From contig JAFLRU010000003.1 in the NCBI GenBank assembly GCA_022511325.1, forward strand, positions 1 through 48,294: a stretch of DNA of 48,294 nt, read 5' to 3'. The DNA comes from Campylobacter sp. (GTDB lineage: Bacteria > Campylobacterota > Campylobacteria > Campylobacterales > Campylobacteraceae). Each line of letters opens with the position of its first letter. The stretch's first letter is position 1. Positions 3,657 through 19,849 of the stretch are shown here, in pieces. Below the pieces are notes generated by a model. It was given only the letters and a program-made list of their open reading frames with translations, did no database searches and was not told the DNA's origin. A program made the translations under genes and the position numbers.

Positions 3657-6600
3657 TCGCTTGTATTATCAGAAATGATAAAATCTGTATAATGAAGCAA
3701 GCAAGAACCCGATCTTATAACCTTTAAAACAAGCTTTTTATTGCCCTTTTCTTTTGGATTGTGTGCATTTCTAGCAAGCTCATAAATTTCATAAATAATT
3801 TCTTTATTTAAACTACTTAAATCAAGTTCTATAACCTTATCTTCGAATTCACTTGGTTCTTTAGTGAATTCTTTATCTGTGTTTTTTGTATTAAATTTTT
3901 TTACAGCTTTAAATTTAGAGTCTTTTAATTCTTCTAAAGTTTTTAAGCTTTTAAGAGAAAAATTCACTTTGCCTTCATCAGTTCTATAAGAAAGTAAGAA
4001 GCCATAAGCTAAATTTCGCTTTTCATTATCCTTAAAAATTTCCTCTATCTCTTCAACATTTGTTTGAAAAACAAAGCTTTCAAAAGAAGAATAAAAATCT
4101 AAAATTTCAAGAGTTCCATAACGTTTGTTATTTTTACTCATCATTGATTTAAAGTCTTCTATTTTTCCTATGCTTAGAATCTCTCCATTGCCTTTAAGCT
4201 CAGAAAAATCAATGCTTTTAACATAGTCAATCTTATCAATTTCATTAAAAAATCTATCAAGCGGATGTCCTGAAACATAAATTCCAAGGATTTCTTTTTC
4301 GTAACCTAATTTTTCCATAAGTTCGAATTCTTTGTCGTTTACAACGATATTTACTTTTAAATCTGAATTAAGCTCCTCTTCACCAAATAAAGAATTTAAA
4401 GCCTCTTTACGCACCTTTGTCATTTGCCTTGAAGTTTCAGCTAAAAGCTCTAAATTATCACACAAACATTTTCTTGTATAACCAAATTCATCAAAAGCTC
4501 CTGATTTTATGAGACTCTCTAAGGTGCGACGCGTGATTTTAGCTGGTTCAATCCTACTTAAAAAATCATTAATATCTTTAAATTCTCCATTTTTTCTAGC
4601 TTCAAGCAAATTTTCAACGGCTGGAACACCTACGCTTTTAATTGCATTCAAACCATAAACAATCACTTCCTGCCCATTTTCGTTCGTCGCACTAAATTCA
4701 CCAATAGCTTTATTGATACTTGGTGGAGAAAGCTTGATATTCATTTTTTTCATCTCATCAATATAAACAGCAACTTTTTCAACATTGTTATCTTCGCTTG
4801 TTAAAAGTGCTGCCATAAACTCACTTGGATAATAAGTCTTTAAAAAGGCTGTTTGAAAGGTAATAAGAGCATAAGCTGCAGAGTGGGATTTATTAAAACC
4901 ATAACCTGCAAATTTTACGATAAGTTCCCAAAGTTCCTCGGCTTTAGTTTTATCATAGCCTTGCTTTTGAGCTCCGTTTGCAAATTCGCTCTTAAGTTTT
5001 TTCATCTTTTCAGGGTCCTTTTTACCCATAGCGCGACGTACTACATCAGCACCTCCTAAAGAAAATCCACCAATAATTTGCACAATTTGCATAACCTGCT
5101 CTTGATAAACAATAACTCCATAAGTAGGTTCTAAAACACTTTTTAAAGAATCAAAAGGATATTGTATAGATTTTATGCCGTGTTTTCTGTCAATGAAATC
5201 ATCAAGCATTCCTGATTCCATAGGACCTGGACGATAAAGGGCTAAAACCGCAATAAGATCTTCAAAACGTTCAGGTTTTAGCCTTGCATTCAAACTTTGC
5301 ATACCGCTTGATTCAATTTGAAAAATTCCTAAGGTATTTCCACTTTGTATAGTCTTATAAACCTTAGGATCATTTACATTAATGCTTTGCCATACAATGT
5401 CTTTATTATGCCTTTTTTTGATAAGTTTAATCGCATTATCAATTAAAGTTAAGGTTTTAAGCCCCAAAAAGTCAAATTTGATTAAATCAATATCCTCTAA
5501 ATGATCCTTAGAATACTGGGTAACTAAATGTTTTTCATCATTTTTGCTTTGTCTAAAAAGCGGAGTTTTTTTCCATAAAGAATCATTTGAAATCACAACC
5601 CCTGCGGCGTGCATACCTGCATTGCGATTAAGTCCTTCTAAAGCCCTAGCATACTCCCAAACTTCTCTACCTTTAGGATGTCTTTCAATGAATTCTTTAA
5701 TCTTTGGTTCTTTTTCATAAGCACTATCGAGAGTGATTTTAAGCTCTTCAGGTATGAGCTTGGTAAGCTCATCTGCATCAGCAATACTCATATCGCAAAC
5801 CCTTGCAACATCTCTTATCACACCCTTAGCTAAAAGCTTACCGAAGGTAATGACTTGTGCAACCTTATCTGCTCCATATTTGTCAATCACATAATCAATC
5901 ACTTCGCCGCGTCTGTATTGACAAAAATCTACATCAATATCAGGCATTGATACACGTTCAGGATTTAAAAATCTCTCAAAAAGTAGATTATATGGAATAG
6001 GATCTAAGTCTGTGATTTTCAAACAATATGAAACCAAGCTTCCTGCAGCTGAACCTCTGCCCGGTCCTACTGGAATTTCCTTATCTTTTGCCATTTTAAT
6101 AAAATCGTGTACTATGAGCATATAACCTGAAAATTTCATATTTTTTATGATTTCTATTTCTAAATCAAGTCTTTGTTTATACTCCTCGTGTTTGCTTTCA
6201 TCAACAAATTTAAGTCTTTCTTCAAGTCCAAGCTTGCAAAGATATTCAAAAACCTTATCATCGTTACTAAAACTCGTATCACTATCAGGTTCTGGCAAGG
6301 TGATATTATGTTTTTTAGCATATTCAAGGGTAAATTTAAAATTTGGAGGCGTTGGATTGCCAAGTTTAAGCTCCAAATTGCATTTTTCCACAATCTCTTG
6401 GGTGTTTGAAATCGCTTCTGGTATATCTGCAAAAAGCTCGCTCATTTGAGCTGGACTCTTAACATAAAATTCGTGCACATTATGACGCATTCTATCAGGA
6501 TCATTAAGCTTTTTTCCCATAGAAATACACATAAAAACTTCGTGTGCAGCGGCTCTTTCCTTGAAAGTATAGTGTGTATCATTTGTAGCAATAATTTTTA

Positions 6601-12324: not shown

Positions 12325-12362
12325 AATAAATAATCCTAGCTTAAAAGCTAGGATTATTTATT
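12325..12362 (-). terminator. Intrinsic terminator downstream of the Zn-ADH gene
   Basis: AAATAATCCTAGCTT-AA-AAGCTAGGATTATTT: 15-bp perfect stem at 12328-12342/12345-12359, extendable by about 3 bp on each side. Confidence 0.75.
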
Positions 12363-13558
12363 TAATCAAGGCTTTTCATATCGATGACAAAGCGAAAATC
12401 CGCTTCACCTTTAGCCACCTTTTCATACGCTTCATCAAGCTTTTGTATAGGGATTATCTCTACTTTCGGATAGATTTTGTTTTTCACAGAATAATCAAGC
12501 ATTTCTTGTGTTTCTTTAATGCCTCCAATCAGTGAAGCATAGATTTTTTTATCTCTAAACTGCCAAACAAAAGCATTTATATCAAAAGTAGGAAAATCTT
12601 TAGGTGCAGGTAAGCCCACTATTGCCATTTCTCCGCCAAATTTAAGCATTCTTGCATAATCATTTATATCATATTTATAAGGAATCGTTGAGATGATGAA
12701 ATCAAAGCGATTTGCAATCTTTTTAAATTCCTCGCTTTGCACATCGATAAATTCCTTTGCTCCAAATTTTAAACACGCTTCTTTTTTGCTTGGCACAATA
12801 TCAAAGCAGGTTACTTCAGCTCCCAAAGCCACCATATATTGTAAAGCCATATGTCCTAAGCCTCCAACCCCTGCCACGGCAACTTTATCGCCTTTTTTAA
12901 CTTTACTAAATTTGATAGGCGAATAAGTCGTAACTCCTGCACAAAGCAAAGGAGCAACCTTTTCAAACTCGGCATTTTTTGGCACTTTAATGGCAAATTT
13001 TTCACTCACAACGATATTGTTAGAATATCCTCCGTAGGTGATTTCATCGTTATGAAACACATCTTTGCTGTTGTAGGTAAAAACGGTTTTTGCATTTGTG
13101 CAGTATTGTTCTTTGCTTTGTTTGCACGCTTCGCACTCTCCACAGGAATTTACCATACAACCAACCCCTGCATAATCTCCAACTTTAAACTTACTTACCT
13201 TTTTACCTACAGCGACAACCTCACCTGCTATTTCGTGTCCAGGAACCATAGGATAATTTGCTTTGCTGTGGTCGCCTCTAACAGTATGTAAATCACTATG
13301 ACAAATTCCTGCATATTTAATTTCTATCAAAACATCATTTTCTCCTAAAGGGTGTCTTGTAAAACTATAAGGCTTAAATTTCCAATCCTTGCTAAAAGCT
13401 GCATAACCTTTGGCTGGGATTCTCTCTCCTTCTTTAAAAAAGATTTTTGAAGTTTGGGCATCAGCAAAAAGTGCATTTGCTCCAAGTGAAAGAGCTGCTA
13501 AACCTCCAGCAACTTTGGCTGAATTTTTTAAAAATTCTCTTCTTTGTGAAGTTTTCAT
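12362..13558 (-). CDS. Zn-dependent alcohol dehydrogenase (YahK/cinnamyl-ADH type) with Tat signal peptide
   Basis: Leader MKTSQRREFLKNSAKVAGGLAALSLGANALFA. Catalytic GICHSDLHTVRGDH, structural-Zn cysteines GCMVNSCGECEACKQSKEQYC, Rossmann AVAGVGGLGHMALQY. RBS AAAGGATATACA-ATG gives the start at 13558. Confidence 0.88.
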   Translation of the reverse strand: MKTSQRREFLKNSAKVAGGLAALSLGANALFADAQTSKIFFKEGERIPAKGYAAFSKDWKFKPYSFTRHPLGENDVLIEIKYAGICHSDLHTVRGDHSKANYPMVPGHEIAGEVVAVGKKVSKFKVGDYAGVGCMVNSCGECEACKQSKEQYCTNAKTVFTYNSKDVFHNDEITYGGYSNNIVVSEKFAIKVPKNAEFEKVAPLLCAGVTTYSPIKFSKVKKGDKVAVAGVGGLGHMALQYMVALGAEVTCFDIVPSKKEACLKFGAKEFIDVQSEEFKKIANRFDFIISTIPYKYDINDYARMLKFGGEMAIVGLPAPKDFPTFDINAFVWQFRDKKIYASLIGGIKETQEMLDYSVKNKIYPKVEIIPIQKLDEAYEKVAKGEADFRFVIDMKSLD

Positions 13559-13643: not shown

Positions 13644-14657
13644 TTAAAATTTATCCTTATGAACCTCTATCAAAAACTTCGCAGTTTGCGGGTCTTGATG
13701 ATTTAAAAAGAGGCTTTGCTTATTATCAAGTGAGGCGATTTTTTGCATATCCTCATCGCTCAAAGCAAAGTCAAAGACATTAAAATTCTCAATCATTCGC
13801 TCTTTGCGTATGGTTTTTGGAATAGCGATGATATTTCTTTGAATCTGCCACCTTAAAATCACTTGAGCAATGCTTTTATTGTATTTTTTGCCAATCGCGC
13901 TTAAGGTTGGATTAGAAAACATATCATTCTTTCCCTCACCAAAAGGCGCCCAAGATTCCATAGCGACATTATATTCCTTCAAAATCTTTTGTGCCTCAAA
14001 TTGTGCGAAAAAGGGATTGCACTCGATTTGATTGAGTGCGGGTTTGATTTCGTTATTAAGACAAAAATCAACGATTCTATCCGGATAAAAATTGCTTACC
14101 CCAATGGCTTTGAATCTACCCTCTTTGTAGAATTTACTCAAGGCTCTCCACGCTCCATAAGTATCATTAAAGGGCTGATGTAAAAGCATCAAATCCACAT
14201 AATCAAGCCCGAGCTTACGCAGAGATTCCTCACACGCTTTGAGCGCTTTTTCTTCCTTGTAGTTATTAATCCAAAGCTTTGTCGTGATAAAAAGCTCCTC
14301 ACGTTTTATGCCACCACTCATAGCATTCTTTATTGCAGCACCCACTTCTGCTTCGTTAAAATAAGCTTGAGCTGTATCAATGCTTCTATATCCTACTTCT
14401 ATGGCATCTTCAACGCATCTTTGTGTTTCTTTTGGTTTAACTTGAAAGACTCCATAGCCTAAAATGGGCATTTTAACCCCATTATTTAATGTTACAAATT
14501 CCATTGTTTTTCCTTTTGTATGGTTGTTTGAGTTCTTGCTTGTTTTATCTTGTTTAGAGCTTGTATTAAGAGCAAAAGCTCCAAGAGATGCAAAAGTCGC
14601 TATTGTAGTGAGTTTTGCAGAGTTTTTAAGAAATTCTCTGCGTTTGTTTTTATCCAT
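13644..14657 (-). CDS. Aldo/keto reductase with Tat signal peptide
   Basis: MDKNKRREFLKNSAKLTTIATFASLGAFALN leader. AKR motifs GYRSIDTAQAYFNEAEVG, YVDLMLLHQPF, GVSNFYPD, IPKTIRKERMIENF. Confidence 0.88.
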   Translation of the reverse strand: MDKNKRREFLKNSAKLTTIATFASLGAFALNTSSKQDKTSKNSNNHTKGKTMEFVTLNNGVKMPILGYGVFQVKPKETQRCVEDAIEVGYRSIDTAQAYFNEAEVGAAIKNAMSGGIKREELFITTKLWINNYKEEKALKACEESLRKLGLDYVDLMLLHQPFNDTYGAWRALSKFYKEGRFKAIGVSNFYPDRIVDFCLNNEIKPALNQIECNPFFAQFEAQKILKEYNVAMESWAPFGEGKNDMFSNPTLSAIGKKYNKSIAQVILRWQIQRNIIAIPKTIRKERMIENFNVFDFALSDEDMQKIASLDNKQSLFLNHQDPQTAKFLIEVHKDKF

Positions 14658-14681: not shown

Positions 14682-15572
14682 TTAATCCACCCAAGAAAAA
14701 TAGCTTTTGTTTTCATCGAGTTTTCTTAGCTTTTGCATATCTTGCGAATCTATGGTAAAATCAAAAATATCTAAATTTTCTTTCATTCTTTCTTTATGAG
14801 AAGTTTTAGGAATGAGGGCAATGTTTTCTTGATTTAAAAAGCGTAAAATGATTTGAGCAGGAGTTTTTGCATATTTTTTACTTAAATCTTGCACTAAAGC
14901 ATTTTCAAATACTTTTTTATTTCCTGCTATAAAAGGACTCCAACTTTGCAAAATTGTTTCTTTCATCACAGCTCTTAAGGCATTTTGTTGATAAAATAAA
15001 TGAGTTTGGCATTGATTGATTGTTGGCATAATTTCAACTTCTTTAATAAACTCGCTGTAAGCTTTTGCATTAAAATTTGAAATTCCAAGAGCCTTAATAA
15101 GCCCTTGTTTATAAGCTTCTTCCATAGCTTTGTAAATTTCTTTGCTGTTTGAATAATTGCTGTGGATTAAAAGGAGGTCAATATAAGTTGTTTGAAGCTC
15201 GTCCAAAGCCCTTTTAATTATCTCTTTTGCTTGTGAAAAAGTTGCATTTTGAGAAATTTTTGTTTCTATGAAAAGCTCACTTCTTGGCATTTGTTTTATG
15301 GCATTGCCTATTTCTTTTTGATTTGCATACATTTGTGCGGTATCAAAAAGTCTATAACCACATTCATAAGCGTCTTTGATAGCTCTTTCACACTCGCTTC
15401 CACGCAAAGCATAAGTTCCAAGCCCAAGAGCAGGCATTTTTACTCCGTTATTTAAAGTCATCATCGGTATTTTTTCTCCATTTTGTGCAAAGAGTGAATC
15501 AGCACCAAAGCTTAAAACACCCAAAATCCCAGCAACTTTGGCTGAATTTTTTAAAAATTCTCTTCTTTTCAT
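14682..15572 (-). CDS. Aldo/keto reductase with Tat signal peptide (second copy)
   Basis: MKRREFLKNSAKVAGILGVLSFGADSLFA leader. GYRLFDTAQMYANQKEIG, YIDLLLIHSN, GISNFNAKAY, IPKTSHKERMKENL. Start set at 15572, with RBS GGGAG. Confidence 0.87.
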   Translation of the reverse strand: MKRREFLKNSAKVAGILGVLSFGADSLFAQNGEKIPMMTLNNGVKMPALGLGTYALRGSECERAIKDAYECGYRLFDTAQMYANQKEIGNAIKQMPRSELFIETKISQNATFSQAKEIIKRALDELQTTYIDLLLIHSNYSNSKEIYKAMEEAYKQGLIKALGISNFNAKAYSEFIKEVEIMPTINQCQTHLFYQQNALRAVMKETILQSWSPFIAGNKKVFENALVQDLSKKYAKTPAQIILRFLNQENIALIPKTSHKERMKENLDIFDFTIDSQDMQKLRKLDENKSYFSWVD

Positions 15573-15585
15573 TTGGAAAACTCCC

Positions 15586-16086
15586 TTAGAAAATTTCAGT
15601 ATCTTGAATAGCTTTTTGATAATCCTCATCACTCACAAGCTCAAGCCATTCGACATTTTTTCCATCTTTATAGCCTGTAAGAGCAATATGAGAAGCTTTA
15701 GAATTTCTTGCTCCGTGCCAGTGTTTGATATTTGGTGGGCAAGAAATTACATCTCCTTTTTTGGCAACACTTGCCTTTTCGCCAAGAACTTGAGTGATAA
15801 TTTCACCTTCAGTTACAATCAAAGTTTGTCCAGCCGGATGAGTATGCCACGCACTTCTAGCATTAGGACTAAATTCAACCAAAGCTCCACCAAATTCACG
15901 CCATTCTTTATTTTCAAAAAGCATAGTAACTCTTACTTCTCCACTAAAAATATTGCTATTGCCCTTAAAACTTGGACGCGAATTTTCTTTTTCTATGATT
16001 TGAGTATCATCATTTTGATTTTCTCCAGCTCCACCGCCTGTTATGATGCAAGCAAACAGACAAAAAGGTCTTAAAAATTTTAGCAT
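15586..16086 (-). CDS. Cupin-domain protein with N-terminal signal/lipobox-like sequence
   Basis: Cupin motif SAWHTHPAGQTLIVTEGEIITQV...GDVISCPPNIKHWHGA. The leader MLKFLRPFCLFACIITGGG contains LFAC. Confidence 0.8.
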   Translation of the reverse strand: MLKFLRPFCLFACIITGGGAGENQNDDTQIIEKENSRPSFKGNSNIFSGEVRVTMLFENKEWREFGGALVEFSPNARSAWHTHPAGQTLIVTEGEIITQVLGEKASVAKKGDVISCPPNIKHWHGARNSKASHIALTGYKDGKNVEWLELVSDEDYQKAIQDTEIF

Positions 16087-16113
16087 TTTTTCTCCTTTGA
16101 TTTAGTTTTTAAA

Positions 16114-16144
16114 ATTATACAACATTAGAGCAACTCTAAGTCAA
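16114..16144 (-). promoter_or_regulatory. MerR-type promoter for the cupin gene: -35 TTGACT, 19-bp spacer, -10 TATAAT, with operator TTAGAGTTGCTCTAA
   Basis: Minus strand reads TTGACT-TAGAGTTGCTCTAATGTTG-TATAAT. The perfect 6-bp dyad spans 16125-16139. Confidence 0.85.
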
Positions 16145-16167
16145 GTCTTTTTATGAAATTTCATTCA

Positions 16168-17355
16168 TTATTTTTCAAATTTAGAGCGGATAAAGACACT
16201 TACAATCCCAGCTAAAATCAGTAAAATGGCTGAAATAGCAATGAATCTTGTATTCCAAAAAGTAATGAAAAACCCACAAACAGCGGTACCAACAAAAAGC
16301 CCTATATTAGCTACAGATATAAATAGACCATTGGTAAATTCAGCAGCGTTTGGATAAGGATAAGAAATCATAAAATGCGTTGCGTTGTTCATAATCCCAC
16401 CTAAAATTCCAAGTAAAAAAATTATGCCGATTAAAAACCGAATTTCATTAGCTTCCATAAAAATAGCTCCATAAAATAAAATCATTATAAAAGGCACAAA
16501 TTTAAGGGTAAAATTTGCATTTTTTACCAAAGCTTTTCCAGCAATGATATTGCCGATGATATTAGAAGCTCCGTAAATAAAAAGAGTGGTGCTAATATAA
16601 GTAAAATCCATCTCTGAAATTTTAAATAAAAAATCAGATAAATAACCATAAAATCCCCATATTCCACCATTAAGACAAACTACAGCGATGATAGAAGCCC
16701 ATAAAAGAGGTTCTTTTAAAATTTTAAATTGATGAGTAAGTTTGATTTTTTCTTTATTTTGGAGTTTTGGCATAAAAAAGATTGTTGCAAGAAAAGTTAG
16801 AGCATTGATAATAAAGAAAAATCCCATTGAGGCTTCAAAAGAAATTTCACCCCCTAAGTAGCTTGTAATTGGCACACCTAAAACCATACCTGCAGAAACT
16901 CCTGCAAAAACTTTTGCTACGGCTTTTGGAGCATCTTTTGGATCATCAACACAAGTGCTTGCAACACTTAAAGCTAGAGCTATGTAAATGGGATGAAAAA
17001 ATGCAGCAAGTGCTCTTAAAACAAGTAAAAGCCAAAATTCATTCACAAAAACACAAGCTAAGGAGCTAAGGCAAAACACTGCTAAACATATACTCATTAA
17101 TCTTTTTTTCTCAAAACCTGAACAAAGCAAAGGAACAATAGGAGCACAAAAGACTATCATCAAAGCAAAAACACTTAAAGTCCAACCTGCATCAGCAGCT
17201 GAAACTCCAAATTTTTGTGAAACTATAGGAATAATGCCCATCATTCCAAGTTCTGTGCTTAAAATTCCAAAAACTCCTAAACATAGGATAAATAAAAGTG
17301 TATTATGATGTTTTTGTGTATGAGTTTGCATTTTTTTCCTTAAAAATAAAATCAT
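16168..17355 (-). CDS. MFS transporter, AraJ/drug-efflux type
   Basis: 12-TM-like 395 aa protein with LGVFGILSTELGMMGIIPIVSQKFGVSAADAGWTLS and VPITSYLGG. The start may be internal (MQTHTQKHHN). Confidence 0.85.
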   Translation of the reverse strand: MILFLRKKMQTHTQKHHNTLLFILCLGVFGILSTELGMMGIIPIVSQKFGVSAADAGWTLSVFALMIVFCAPIVPLLCSGFEKKRLMSICLAVFCLSSLACVFVNEFWLLLVLRALAAFFHPIYIALALSVASTCVDDPKDAPKAVAKVFAGVSAGMVLGVPITSYLGGEISFEASMGFFFIINALTFLATIFFMPKLQNKEKIKLTHQFKILKEPLLWASIIAVVCLNGGIWGFYGYLSDFLFKISEMDFTYISTTLFIYGASNIIGNIIAGKALVKNANFTLKFVPFIMILFYGAIFMEANEIRFLIGIIFLLGILGGIMNNATHFMISYPYPNAAEFTNGLFISVANIGLFVGTAVCGFFITFWNTRFIAISAILLILAGIVSVFIRSKFEK

Positions 17356-17408
17356 TAAAGTTTAAAAAAATATGGAATAAAATTTGTCAATAAATTTTAA
17401 AAACTAAA

Positions 17409-17439
17409 ATTATACAACATTAGAGCGACTCTAAGTCAA
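17409..17439 (-). promoter_or_regulatory. MerR-type promoter for the MFS gene: -35 TTGACT, 19-bp spacer, -10 TATAAT, with operator TTAGAGTCGCTCTAA
   Basis: Minus strand reads TTGACT-TAGAGTCGCTCTAATGTTG-TATAAT, one base different from the copy at 16114-16144. Dyad at 17420-17434. Confidence 0.85.
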
Positions 17440-17501
17440 GAGTTTTTATGACATTTTAATTTATTTTAGAAATAATATAAAAGAGTGTAAAATAAGAATT
17501 A

Positions 17502-17969
17502 TCATTTTTTGAGCTTTTTATTGAAATTTTTTCCTTGATAGCTTTTATTTTTTTTATAAAAATCCTTGCCTTCGTAATTTTTGGTGTAAGGATTGAGTCT
17601 ATCTTGTTTGTCTTTTATATCTTTTTCATAAATTTTAACTTTATTTTCTAATTTTTGTAAAATTTCTTCATAATTTTTCAAGATATTTTTAGCTTTGTCT
17701 CTTTGAATTTTAATAAGCTCAAACCTTTCTTCTAAAGATTCATCACCTAATAAACACAAATCAAGATAATGTTTAATCTCATCTAAACTTAGTTCTAACT
17801 CCCTAAAACACTGCACTAAAGACACTAATTGTAAATCTTGTTCGCTAAAATACCTTACCCCATTTTTATCTCTTTGCAAATGAGAAAAAAGTCCTTTTTT
17901 TGCCCAAAATCTTATAGTATGTTCATTAATTTTCGTAATTTCACTTACTTTTTTAATCGTATAAGCCAT
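17502..17969 (-). CDS. MerR-family transcriptional regulator
   Basis: MAYTIKKVSEITKINEHTIRFWAKKGLFSHLQRDKNGVRYFSEQDLQLVSLVQCFRELELSLDEIKHYLDLC is the MerR HTH plus coiled coil. Start set at 17969; the ORF extends to 18035, overlapping moeA. Confidence 0.9.
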   Translation of the reverse strand: MAYTIKKVSEITKINEHTIRFWAKKGLFSHLQRDKNGVRYFSEQDLQLVSLVQCFRELELSLDEIKHYLDLCLLGDESLEERFELIKIQRDKAKNILKNYEEILQKLENKVKIYEKDIKDKQDRLNPYTKNYEGKDFYKKNKSYQGKNFNKKLKK

Positions 17970-17983
17970 AATTTTTCTTTCTT

Positions 17984-19177
17984 TTAAGGCATAAAAATAA
18001 TATCTACTAAAGCTTTGTCTTCTAAGCTTTGGCACTCTTTTGGAACAACCATTAAAGCAGCTTTGTTATTAAGATTGTTAATGATTGCACTTGAACCATC
18101 TTTTTTGCCTTTTAAATTTGCTAAAATTTGTCCATTTTTAAACTCTATATTACAAGCAACAAATTCCAAATAAGGTGTTTTTTTCGTATAGTTTCCACAT
18201 AAAAAAGCTTTGCAAATATAATCTTTTTTTTGTAAAAGCCAAAAATTAAGAATTTCTCTTGTATAAAGGTTAAACATTACCATAGCAGAATAAGGAAAAC
18301 CGGGTAGTGCGATGATGAATTTATTTTTAAATTTAGCAATTTTTATATGTCTTCCAGGTTTTATATCTACTTTGTCAATGATGATTTCATATTCTCTTAC
18401 AGCTTTTTTTAAAAAATCAAAATCTCCCATAGAAACGCCACCTGTAGTGATTAAAATATCACAACTTTGCAAAGCATTCTCTAAAGTATTTTTAGTTTGT
18501 TTTTCGTCATCTTTTAAAAGAGGAAAAATCACACTTTTGCATCCTAATTTTTGTGCTAAATTTGCTAGGGCAATATGATTTGAAGAACGAATTTGAGCGG
18601 GATTTTCCAAACTTTCTCCTAAGTCTTTTATCTCGCTTCCACTGCTTAAAACCCCAACAATAGGTTTTATAAAAACGCTGATATGAAAAAAACCAAGTTC
18701 GGCTAAAAGAGCGATTTCACTATAACTAAGCTTTGTGCCTTTTTGGAGTAAAACTTCGTCTTTTTTATAACTCTCGCCAATTTCTCTTATAGCAAAACCT
18801 TTTTTTACAGCTTCTTTGATGAAAATTTTATTTTCTTTTACTTCAACATTTTCAACTGGAACTAAGGTATCACTTCCTTCACTCATCAATGAGCCGGTGA
18901 AAGTTTTGACGCATTGTCCTTCGCCAACACAAAATTCGGGCATAGTTCCTGCAGGAGTTTTTCCTAGAATAGTTAAAGCCTTATTTTGGTCTTCAAATCT
19001 AAGAGCATAGCCGTCCATTGCTGCAGTTCTAAATTCAGGGTGATTTTTAGGAGCTTTAATATCCTCAGCCAAGATGCGTCCTAGACACTGCGTTATAGCT
19101 ATTTTTTCAATTTTTTCATAAGTTTTAAGATGGGTTTTTAAAAGTTCTAAACTTTTTTCATAAGACATTAATGTCAT
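17984..19177 (-). CDS. moeA: Molybdopterin molybdenumtransferase
   Basis: HPEFRTAAMDGYALR, LSSGSEIKDLG, ILITTGGVSMGDFDFL, IALPGFPYSAMVMF. Confidence 0.93.
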   Translation of the reverse strand: MTLMSYEKSLELLKTHLKTYEKIEKIAITQCLGRILAEDIKAPKNHPEFRTAAMDGYALRFEDQNKALTILGKTPAGTMPEFCVGEGQCVKTFTGSLMSEGSDTLVPVENVEVKENKIFIKEAVKKGFAIREIGESYKKDEVLLQKGTKLSYSEIALLAELGFFHISVFIKPIVGVLSSGSEIKDLGESLENPAQIRSSNHIALANLAQKLGCKSVIFPLLKDDEKQTKNTLENALQSCDILITTGGVSMGDFDFLKKAVREYEIIIDKVDIKPGRHIKIAKFKNKFIIALPGFPYSAMVMFNLYTREILNFWLLQKKDYICKAFLCGNYTKKTPYLEFVACNIEFKNGQILANLKGKKDGSSAIINNLNNKAALMVVPKECQSLEDKALVDIIFMP

Positions 19178-19185
19178 TTAAATCC

Positions 19186-19638
19186 TTAGTTTAAAATTCC
19201 TGCTCCACGCAGCTTACTTGAACGTTCTTTTGCATAAATTTTTTCGCCTTTAATCACATCATATTTCCAAATTGGAGCATTTGCTTTAAAATCTTCTACG
19301 AAATCATTAATGAGTTTAAGTCCTAGTTTTCTTTGCTTGCTTAAAACCCCAGCGAAATAAGAACTTTTATGCACCTTAACTTCACCGATAGAATGAGCAA
19401 ACATTAGCTTCACCTTGTCTTTTTCAACCTTTTTTTGCCATTCTTCAAACCAAGTTTTAAGCAAAGGTTCGTAAATATCAAAACTCAAAGCTTCAACATC
19501 ATTTTCGGCACGCACTATGCCACAAAAAGTAATCAAAGCCCCACAATTTTGCTCTTTTGCATAATTATACCATTTGTTATAAATTTTTGTAATATCTAAA
19601 TCCCCATTATAGAGTTCAAACATTGAATTATCCGCCAC
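19186..19638 (-). CDS. moaE: Molybdopterin synthase catalytic subunit
   Basis: GALITFCGIVRAEN, MFAHSIGEVKVHKSSYFAGVLS, APIWKYDVIKGE. Confidence 0.9.
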   Translation of the reverse strand: MADNSMFELYNGDLDITKIYNKWYNYAKEQNCGALITFCGIVRAENDVEALSFDIYEPLLKTWFEEWQKKVEKDKVKLMFAHSIGEVKVHKSSYFAGVLSKQRKLGLKLINDFVEDFKANAPIWKYDVIKGEKIYAKERSSKLRGAGILN

Positions 19639-19849
19639 AAACAGGAGGTAACAAAGCTATTTTATCCCCGTCTTTTAAAGTTTGATTTTCATCAAAAATG
19701 ATTTTATCATTTAAAGCTACTGCACAAAGACTTAACCATTCCTTTAAGCTTTCATCTTGTTTTAAAAATTCTTTAAGTTCTTTTAAAGTATGGACATTAA
19801 CTTCTACATTTTCTTTATTAATCGGTCCTAAAAATTCAATTTTTATCAT
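19628..19849 (-). CDS. moaD: Molybdopterin synthase sulfur carrier subunit
   Basis: 73 aa ubiquitin-like protein ending GDKIALLPPVCGG; overlaps moaE. Confidence 0.9.
   Translation of the reverse strand: MIKIEFLGPINKENVEVNVHTLKELKEFLKQDESLKEWLSLCAVALNDKIIFDENQTLKDGDKIALLPPVCGG

Follow-up and report, generated by a model that had tools for sequence, protein, structure and literature searches.

Two near-identical 19-bp-spacer promoters in Campylobacter and an NmlR/AdhR-like MerR regulator that very likely controls them

The gene cluster

The window studied here is a stretch of 48,294 nucleotides of contig JAFLRU010000003.1 from a Campylobacter sp. assembly (GCA_022511325.1). It holds a cluster of genes, all encoded on the minus strand and arranged as moaD-moaE-moeA-regulator-P1-MFS-P2-cupin-AKR-AKR-ADH, where P1 and P2 are two promoter/operator sites. 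The first gene after P1 encodes an MFS transporter of the Cmx/CmrA/AraJ-like drug or sugar efflux type (16168..17355; Pfam MFS_1, 2.4e-34). P2 is followed by the gene of a (R)-mandelonitrile-lyase-like cupin with a signal-like stretch at its N-terminus (15586..16086; NF049940, 146 bits at a cut-off of 140), whose ATG lies 27 nt from the −10 box. Then come two DkgA-like aldo-keto reductases (AKRs), both with a twin-arginine signal, which in the first reads RREFLK (14682..15572, Pfam 4.5e-40; 13644..14657, Pfam 8.6e-49), and an Ahr-like zinc alcohol dehydrogenase/aldehyde reductase (ADH), again with a twin-arginine signal (12362..13558; NF047908, 273 bits, below the cut-off of 470). The names of these regulated genes are backed by Pfam and NCBIfam. 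Directly upstream of the regulator gene (17502..17969) lie three genes (17984..19849) which we take to be moeA, moaE and moaD, as recognised from their sequences and from synteny. No copy of the operator precedes the regulator gene at this locus, and it is therefore probable that the regulator shares a transcript with moeA and does not control itself.

The nearest relative, genome G257, carries a regulator with 75% identity, the same gene order including moaD-moaE-moeA-merR, and both sites, with one of the AKRs missing; the counterpart of P1 lies at position 6397 of locus L110 on the plus strand. A regulator cluster directly downstream of moaD-moaE-moeA was seen again in a further Campylobacter genome, G188 (L045, 5590-12265), with a different gene content and a different operator class. 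We also observed that the first AKR and the ADH begin alike (about 15530-15572 and 13505-13550 on the minus strand): ~38-40 bp, which code for the twin-arginine signal RREFLKNSAKVAG, are identical in both genes. The two enzymes are unrelated, and it looks as though a module for a signal peptide had passed from one gene to the other by copying.

The two promoter sites

P1 occupies 17409..17439 and P2 16114..16144, both on the minus strand and both with the layout TTGACT-N19-TATAAT (TTAGAGTCGCTCTAA and TTAGAGTTGCTCTAA, respectively). In P1 the −35 box TTGACT lies at 17434-17439 and the −10 box TATAAT at 17409-17414; the corresponding boxes of P2 lie at 16139-16144 and 16114-16119, and in each case the boxes are separated by a spacer of 19 bp. 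The location, strand and layout that the first-pass annotation had given for both sites proved to be exact, as did its count of a single difference between the copies across 31 bp, which falls on the centre of a 15-bp dyad. This dyad reads TTAGAG-TCG-CTCTAA in P1 (17420..17434) and TTAGAG-TTG-CTCTAA in P2 (16125..16139), and its arms are the putative half-sites of the regulator around an odd centre. It had been described as lying inside the spacer; this holds for 14 of its 15 bases, but the first base is the final T of the −35 box. At both sites the centre of the dyad is 7 bp from the end of the −35 box. The similarity that had been noted in the upstream flank is real but weak (19 of the 31 bp before the −35 box, permutation p=0.007). 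It need not point to a recent duplication, since a conserved C before TTGAC and an A/T periodicity are found at the related sites as well.

We scanned the window with up to 3 mismatches allowed and found only these 2 matches, compared to 0 in 100 dinucleotide shuffles. The same 2 matches (≤3 mismatches) were the only ones in the whole assembly of 1,245,338 bp, which is 89% complete. When we listed all pairs of TTGAC[ACT] and TATAAT in the window with gaps of 14-22 bp, P1 and P2 were obtained at 19 bp together with one other pair at 14 bp. A chance origin of the sites was considered and judged improbable.

A consensus −35 box had been called unusual for Campylobacter, which agrees with the dRNA-seq work on this genus (PMC3656092). 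The sigma70 promoters of C. jejuni show periodic A/T and an extended −10 box (TGx) and lack a clear −35 box (PMC3656092). The sites related to P1 and P2 keep the A/T periodicity upstream and add the consensus −35 box, and the TGx extension is absent from the −10 boxes of both window sites. We think that a consensus −35 box without TGx suits a promoter that needs an activator to align its boxes. In the related sites of both operator classes described below, a C stands right before TTGAC in 96-98% and a further C three bases before it in 67-77%, in surroundings that are rich in A/T. These conserved Cs possibly form an extended −35 element.

The regulator

The gene at 17502..17969 (minus strand) encodes a MerR regulator of 155 aa (Pfam MerR_1, PF13411, 6e-18) with His17 in the recognition helix and a cysteine at position 54. 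The best MerR model was the NmlR model NF041849 (3e-25), which reached 88.5 bits, 44 bits ahead of the next model and below its equivalog cut-off of 175 bits. The best matches in the PDB were 5e01, 5d90 and 5d8c at about 1e-19, all of them NmlR of H. influenzae, and the alignment to this protein ran over 116 residues without a gap and matched Cys54 to Cys54. As in NmlR and AdhR, the protein is short, consisting of the MerR HTH domains with no C-terminal sensor domain, and it has the characteristic cysteine (Cys54; Cys52 in AdhR). Both the NCBIfam model and the PDB matches place it closest to NmlR within the MerR family. Taken together, these comparisons narrow the protein down to an NmlR/AdhR-like subfamily.

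The presumed signal of NmlR-clade proteins is carbonyl or oxidative stress, and the cysteine is required for sensing it (PMC4776306, PMC10151825). Among 47 distinct homologues from Campylobacterota, Cys54 is kept in just 25. In the regulators of genomes G251, G253, G254, G281 and G282 and in others it is replaced by Trp, and the nearest operator of these regulators is of the same His17/G type. Their sensing chemistry must therefore differ and a sensor based on Cys54 cannot be universal in this group.

Distribution of sites and regulators

The first-pass annotation had proposed that the two promoters depend on the regulator at 17502-17969. The co-occurrence of sites and regulators, the covariation of residue 17 with the operator, the shared kinds of target genes and a precedent in the gonococcus all speak for this link. 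In 49 Campylobacter genomes a site of the window type (GAG-type) was present in 17 of the 23 genomes with a regulator and in 0 of the 26 without (Fisher 1.6e-8). Across the wider order 12 of 249 genomes encode a strong homologue of the regulator, and the 4 genomes in which a site was found all belong to these 12 (p=3e-6); neither Fisher value takes shared ancestry into account. Controls with the reversed pattern gave zero matches in these searches. A second, CAC-type class of sites was detected by a weight-matrix scan, for which 1 Mb of simulated sequence produced no score >8.7. Counting both types, 22 of the 23 regulator-bearing Campylobacter genomes had a site compared to 1 of the 26 regulator-less ones. 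The spacer was always 19 bp at the related sites of both classes.

Nor did the sequence turn up at many unrelated places, the outcome that would have spoken against the proposal: the genome holds 2 sites, and elsewhere the sites lie upstream of regulon genes. This is also the case in genomes G279 and G263, in which sites are present and a regulator is not detectable. In G263 (L178, 1681-5145) we observed two sites next to MFS and hydrolase genes that are apparently broken, with no detectable regulator, and this copy of the regulon looks to be in decay. A search with the regulator against genome contigs returned just three distant betaproteobacterial loci, and generic scans there revealed no convincing operator.

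Related sites precede similar kinds of genes at different genomic places. A few of the loci entered the set on account of a site in them, so that the following counts describe our set and are no census. The 123 downstream ORFs comprise 30 AKRs, 19 ADHs, 15 alpha/beta hydrolases, 12 cupins, 8 copies of the regulator itself and 7 MFS transporters; carboxymuconolactone decarboxylases, flavodoxin-like proteins and short-chain dehydrogenases form smaller groups. The distance from the −10 box to the start is 24-36 nt in 68 of the 123 ORFs, and in 33 of the 123 a twin-arginine-like motif is found close to the N-terminus.

Operator classes and residue 17

The second class of operators is of the TTGAC-AAACACTAGGTGTTAGG type, with CAC/GTG in place of GAG/CTC. 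We aligned the regulators with their nearest operators and detected a clear correspondence with residue 17, which lies in the recognition helix EHTIRFW. His at this position was paired with a GAG/CTC operator in 16 of 16 cases and Arg with a CAC/GTG operator in 22 of 22; one half of one Arg site is degenerate. With Tyr or Thr at this position the operator base was mostly T. In metal-type MerR proteins one position of this helix is the most strongly correlated with the operator bases (PMC5045206). According to our own mapping, residue 17 would be residue 2 of the recognition helix and thus this very position. On the tree of the regulators 6 changes of residue 17 are needed. For His and Arg there is 1 independent contrast on well-supported branches and there are 3 on the best tree, too few for significance in an independent-pairs test. 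This test thus has little phylogenetic power, and the perfect covariation rests on few events.

One genome can have both classes, as illustrated by G257 with two regulators and two operator classes. In genome G272 (L112-L120) we observed 9 GAG-type and 7 CAC-type sites, which are dispersed, and regulators of both types; apparently this genome runs two parallel regulons.

On balance we favour the following picture for the Campylobacterota. The regulators would form a paralogous NmlR-like family whose operator codes (GAG, CAC and TAG/TAC) are set largely by residue 17, acting on an odd dyad of 15 bp within a rigid 19-bp spacer. Their dispersed regulons would be rich in oxidoreductases, many of them Tat-exported, and about half of the regulators lack Cys54, so that a part of the family would sense in another way.

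Proposed mechanism and alternative explanations

Very likely P1 and P2 are controlled by the regulator at 17502-17969 in the MerR manner and form one small regulon. The association of regulator and operator is strongly supported, while we infer that the regulator binds, that it activates by distorting the DNA, what induces it and what Cys54 does. Promoters of the MerR type have spacers of 19-20 bp and a dyad between the boxes centred 7-8 bp from the −35 box (PMC5045206), and are linked to a winged-helix MerR regulator. The window sites show the same with their spacers of 19 bp, which the related sites share, the centre at 7 bp, and a regulator tied to them by its Pfam match and by co-occurrence.

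In the mechanism that we propose, a dimer of the regulator would bind TTAGAG-N3-CTCTAA, and each subunit would read one half-site via the recognition helix, in which His17 goes with the GAG/CTC base. With 19 bp between them, the −35 and −10 boxes would be out of register, which would keep resting transcription low. The inducer is probably a reactive electrophile or oxidant. It would be sensed, most likely via Cys54, whereupon the operator would be untwisted and kinked so that RNA polymerase could use both boxes. Activation of P1 would then yield the MFS exporter and activation of P2 the cupin, the two AKRs and the alcohol/aldehyde dehydrogenase, and the induced enzymes and the pump would reduce or export the offending compound.

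There are several other possible explanations for the same observations. The regulator or another protein could simply block P1 and P2, with induction by release and no distortion of the DNA. The dyad covers the last base of the −35 box and most of the spacer and would be well placed for this purpose, but a blocking repressor does not need the 19 bp that are held in two operator classes, and a spacer that is out of register is a hallmark of MerR-type activation (PMC5045206, PMC9909328). We thus regard plain repression as unlikely. That the same promoters respond to a metal (Zn, Cu, Cd or Hg) seems quite unlikely: weak matches to metal-sensing MerR models were found, but the NmlR model is far ahead (88.5 compared to 44 bits), NmlR of H. 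influenzae is the closest solved relative, and the downstream genes encode reductases, cupins and hydrolases, with no metal ATPase or chaperone among the genes examined.

It could also be that the sites are bound by an unlinked factor and that the regulator next to them is a mere bystander, for which the sites that persist in G279 and G263 might be taken as an indication. However, the apparently broken MFS and hydrolase genes of G263 fit a decaying regulon. A bystander would not explain the match of presence and absence across the genus, nor the perfect covariation of residue and base, and in several genomes, as in the gonococcus, the sites lie directly upstream of the regulator gene itself; we consider this explanation very improbable. 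The least credible alternative is that P1 and P2 arose when an ordinary promoter was recently duplicated in place. Only one base differs in 31 bp and there is the weak similarity upstream, yet the same pair occurs in the same order in G257, despite the divergence of its regulator. Moreover, equivalent sites are dispersed in other genomes, with up to 9 of the GAG type in G272, and they were found at unlinked targets in distant genomes.

Control by the neighbouring MerR regulator thus remains our preferred explanation, and the analysis adds to the first-pass annotation the NmlR/AdhR clade, a wider regulon and a second operator class. What is new is that the system is spread through the Campylobacterota, that its dyad is odd with 15 bp, that His or Arg in the regulator goes with a particular operator, and that about half of the regulators are without Cys54. 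The range of NmlR-like systems thereby grows to include Campylobacter and further families of the same order, and the analysis predicts which genes belong to the regulon, which classes of operators exist and which single residue determines specificity. The sites also represent a regulated class of promoters in a genus in which a clear −35 box is normally missing (PMC3656092). The view of Cys54 as absolutely conserved in the NmlR clade is limited as well.

Comparison with known systems

In a 2016 review, the only Gram-negative bacteria listed with NmlR are Neisseria and a few members of the Pasteurellaceae (PMC4776306), and we found no described NmlR regulon of Campylobacter in the searchable literature, a coverage outside which most subscription journals fall. 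Among the NmlR systems (N. gonorrhoeae, H. influenzae, S. pneumoniae) the structures from H. influenzae are the closest to the window regulator. In N. gonorrhoeae the sequence TTGCCT-TAGAGTGAACTCTAAAATG-TAAACT lies directly upstream of an nmlR-type gene on the opposite strand, and on a Vibrio plasmid TTGACT-TAGAGTTCACTCTAACTTG-TAAGGT adjoins a MerR gene. Both sites have a 19-bp spacer and the same half-sites as the window sites, TTAGAG/CTCTAA in the gonococcus, but their dyads have a centre of N4 (16 bp in the gonococcus) whereas those of the window have N3 (15 bp). When we searched the 49 Campylobacter genomes for the N4 operator, we obtained 4 weak, chance-like matches, no more common than those of the reversed-pattern controls. 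The targets differ as well: in the window they are AKRs, an Ahr-like ADH, a cupin and an MFS transporter and not adhC-estD, the genes of GSH-dependent formaldehyde oxidation. The class III ADH model reached 96 bits with a cut-off of 544, and neither an estD-like gene nor a GSH-dependent adhC/estD pair was found beside the regulator in the cluster. Nor is Cys54 a constant feature of the Campylobacterota group.

AdhR (YraB) of Bacillus subtilis is likewise a MerR protein of the NmlR clade which serves in carbonyl and electrophile defence and has a single key Cys (PMC4776306). It controls another set of genes (adhA, yraC, yraA), though genes of the carboxymuconolactone decarboxylase family also occur in some of the Campylobacterota regulons. 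A gene set similar to that of the window, AKR-AKR-MerR-oxidoreductase-MFS, is found on a Priestia plasmid. In the promoters of CueR and CadR, too, an odd dyad is centred 7 bp away from the −35 box and the spacer measures 19-20 bp (PMC5045206), but these proteins sense metals, and their half-sites and targets are different. Spacers of 19-20 bp and distortion of the DNA are the hallmark of MerR-type activation in general (PMC5045206, PMC9909328). SoxR and BmrR activate by distortion on a 19-bp spacer (PMC9909328), as we propose for P1 and P2, but judging from its length and domain matches the window protein of 155 aa should have neither the Fe-S cluster of SoxR nor the large drug-binding domain of BmrR.
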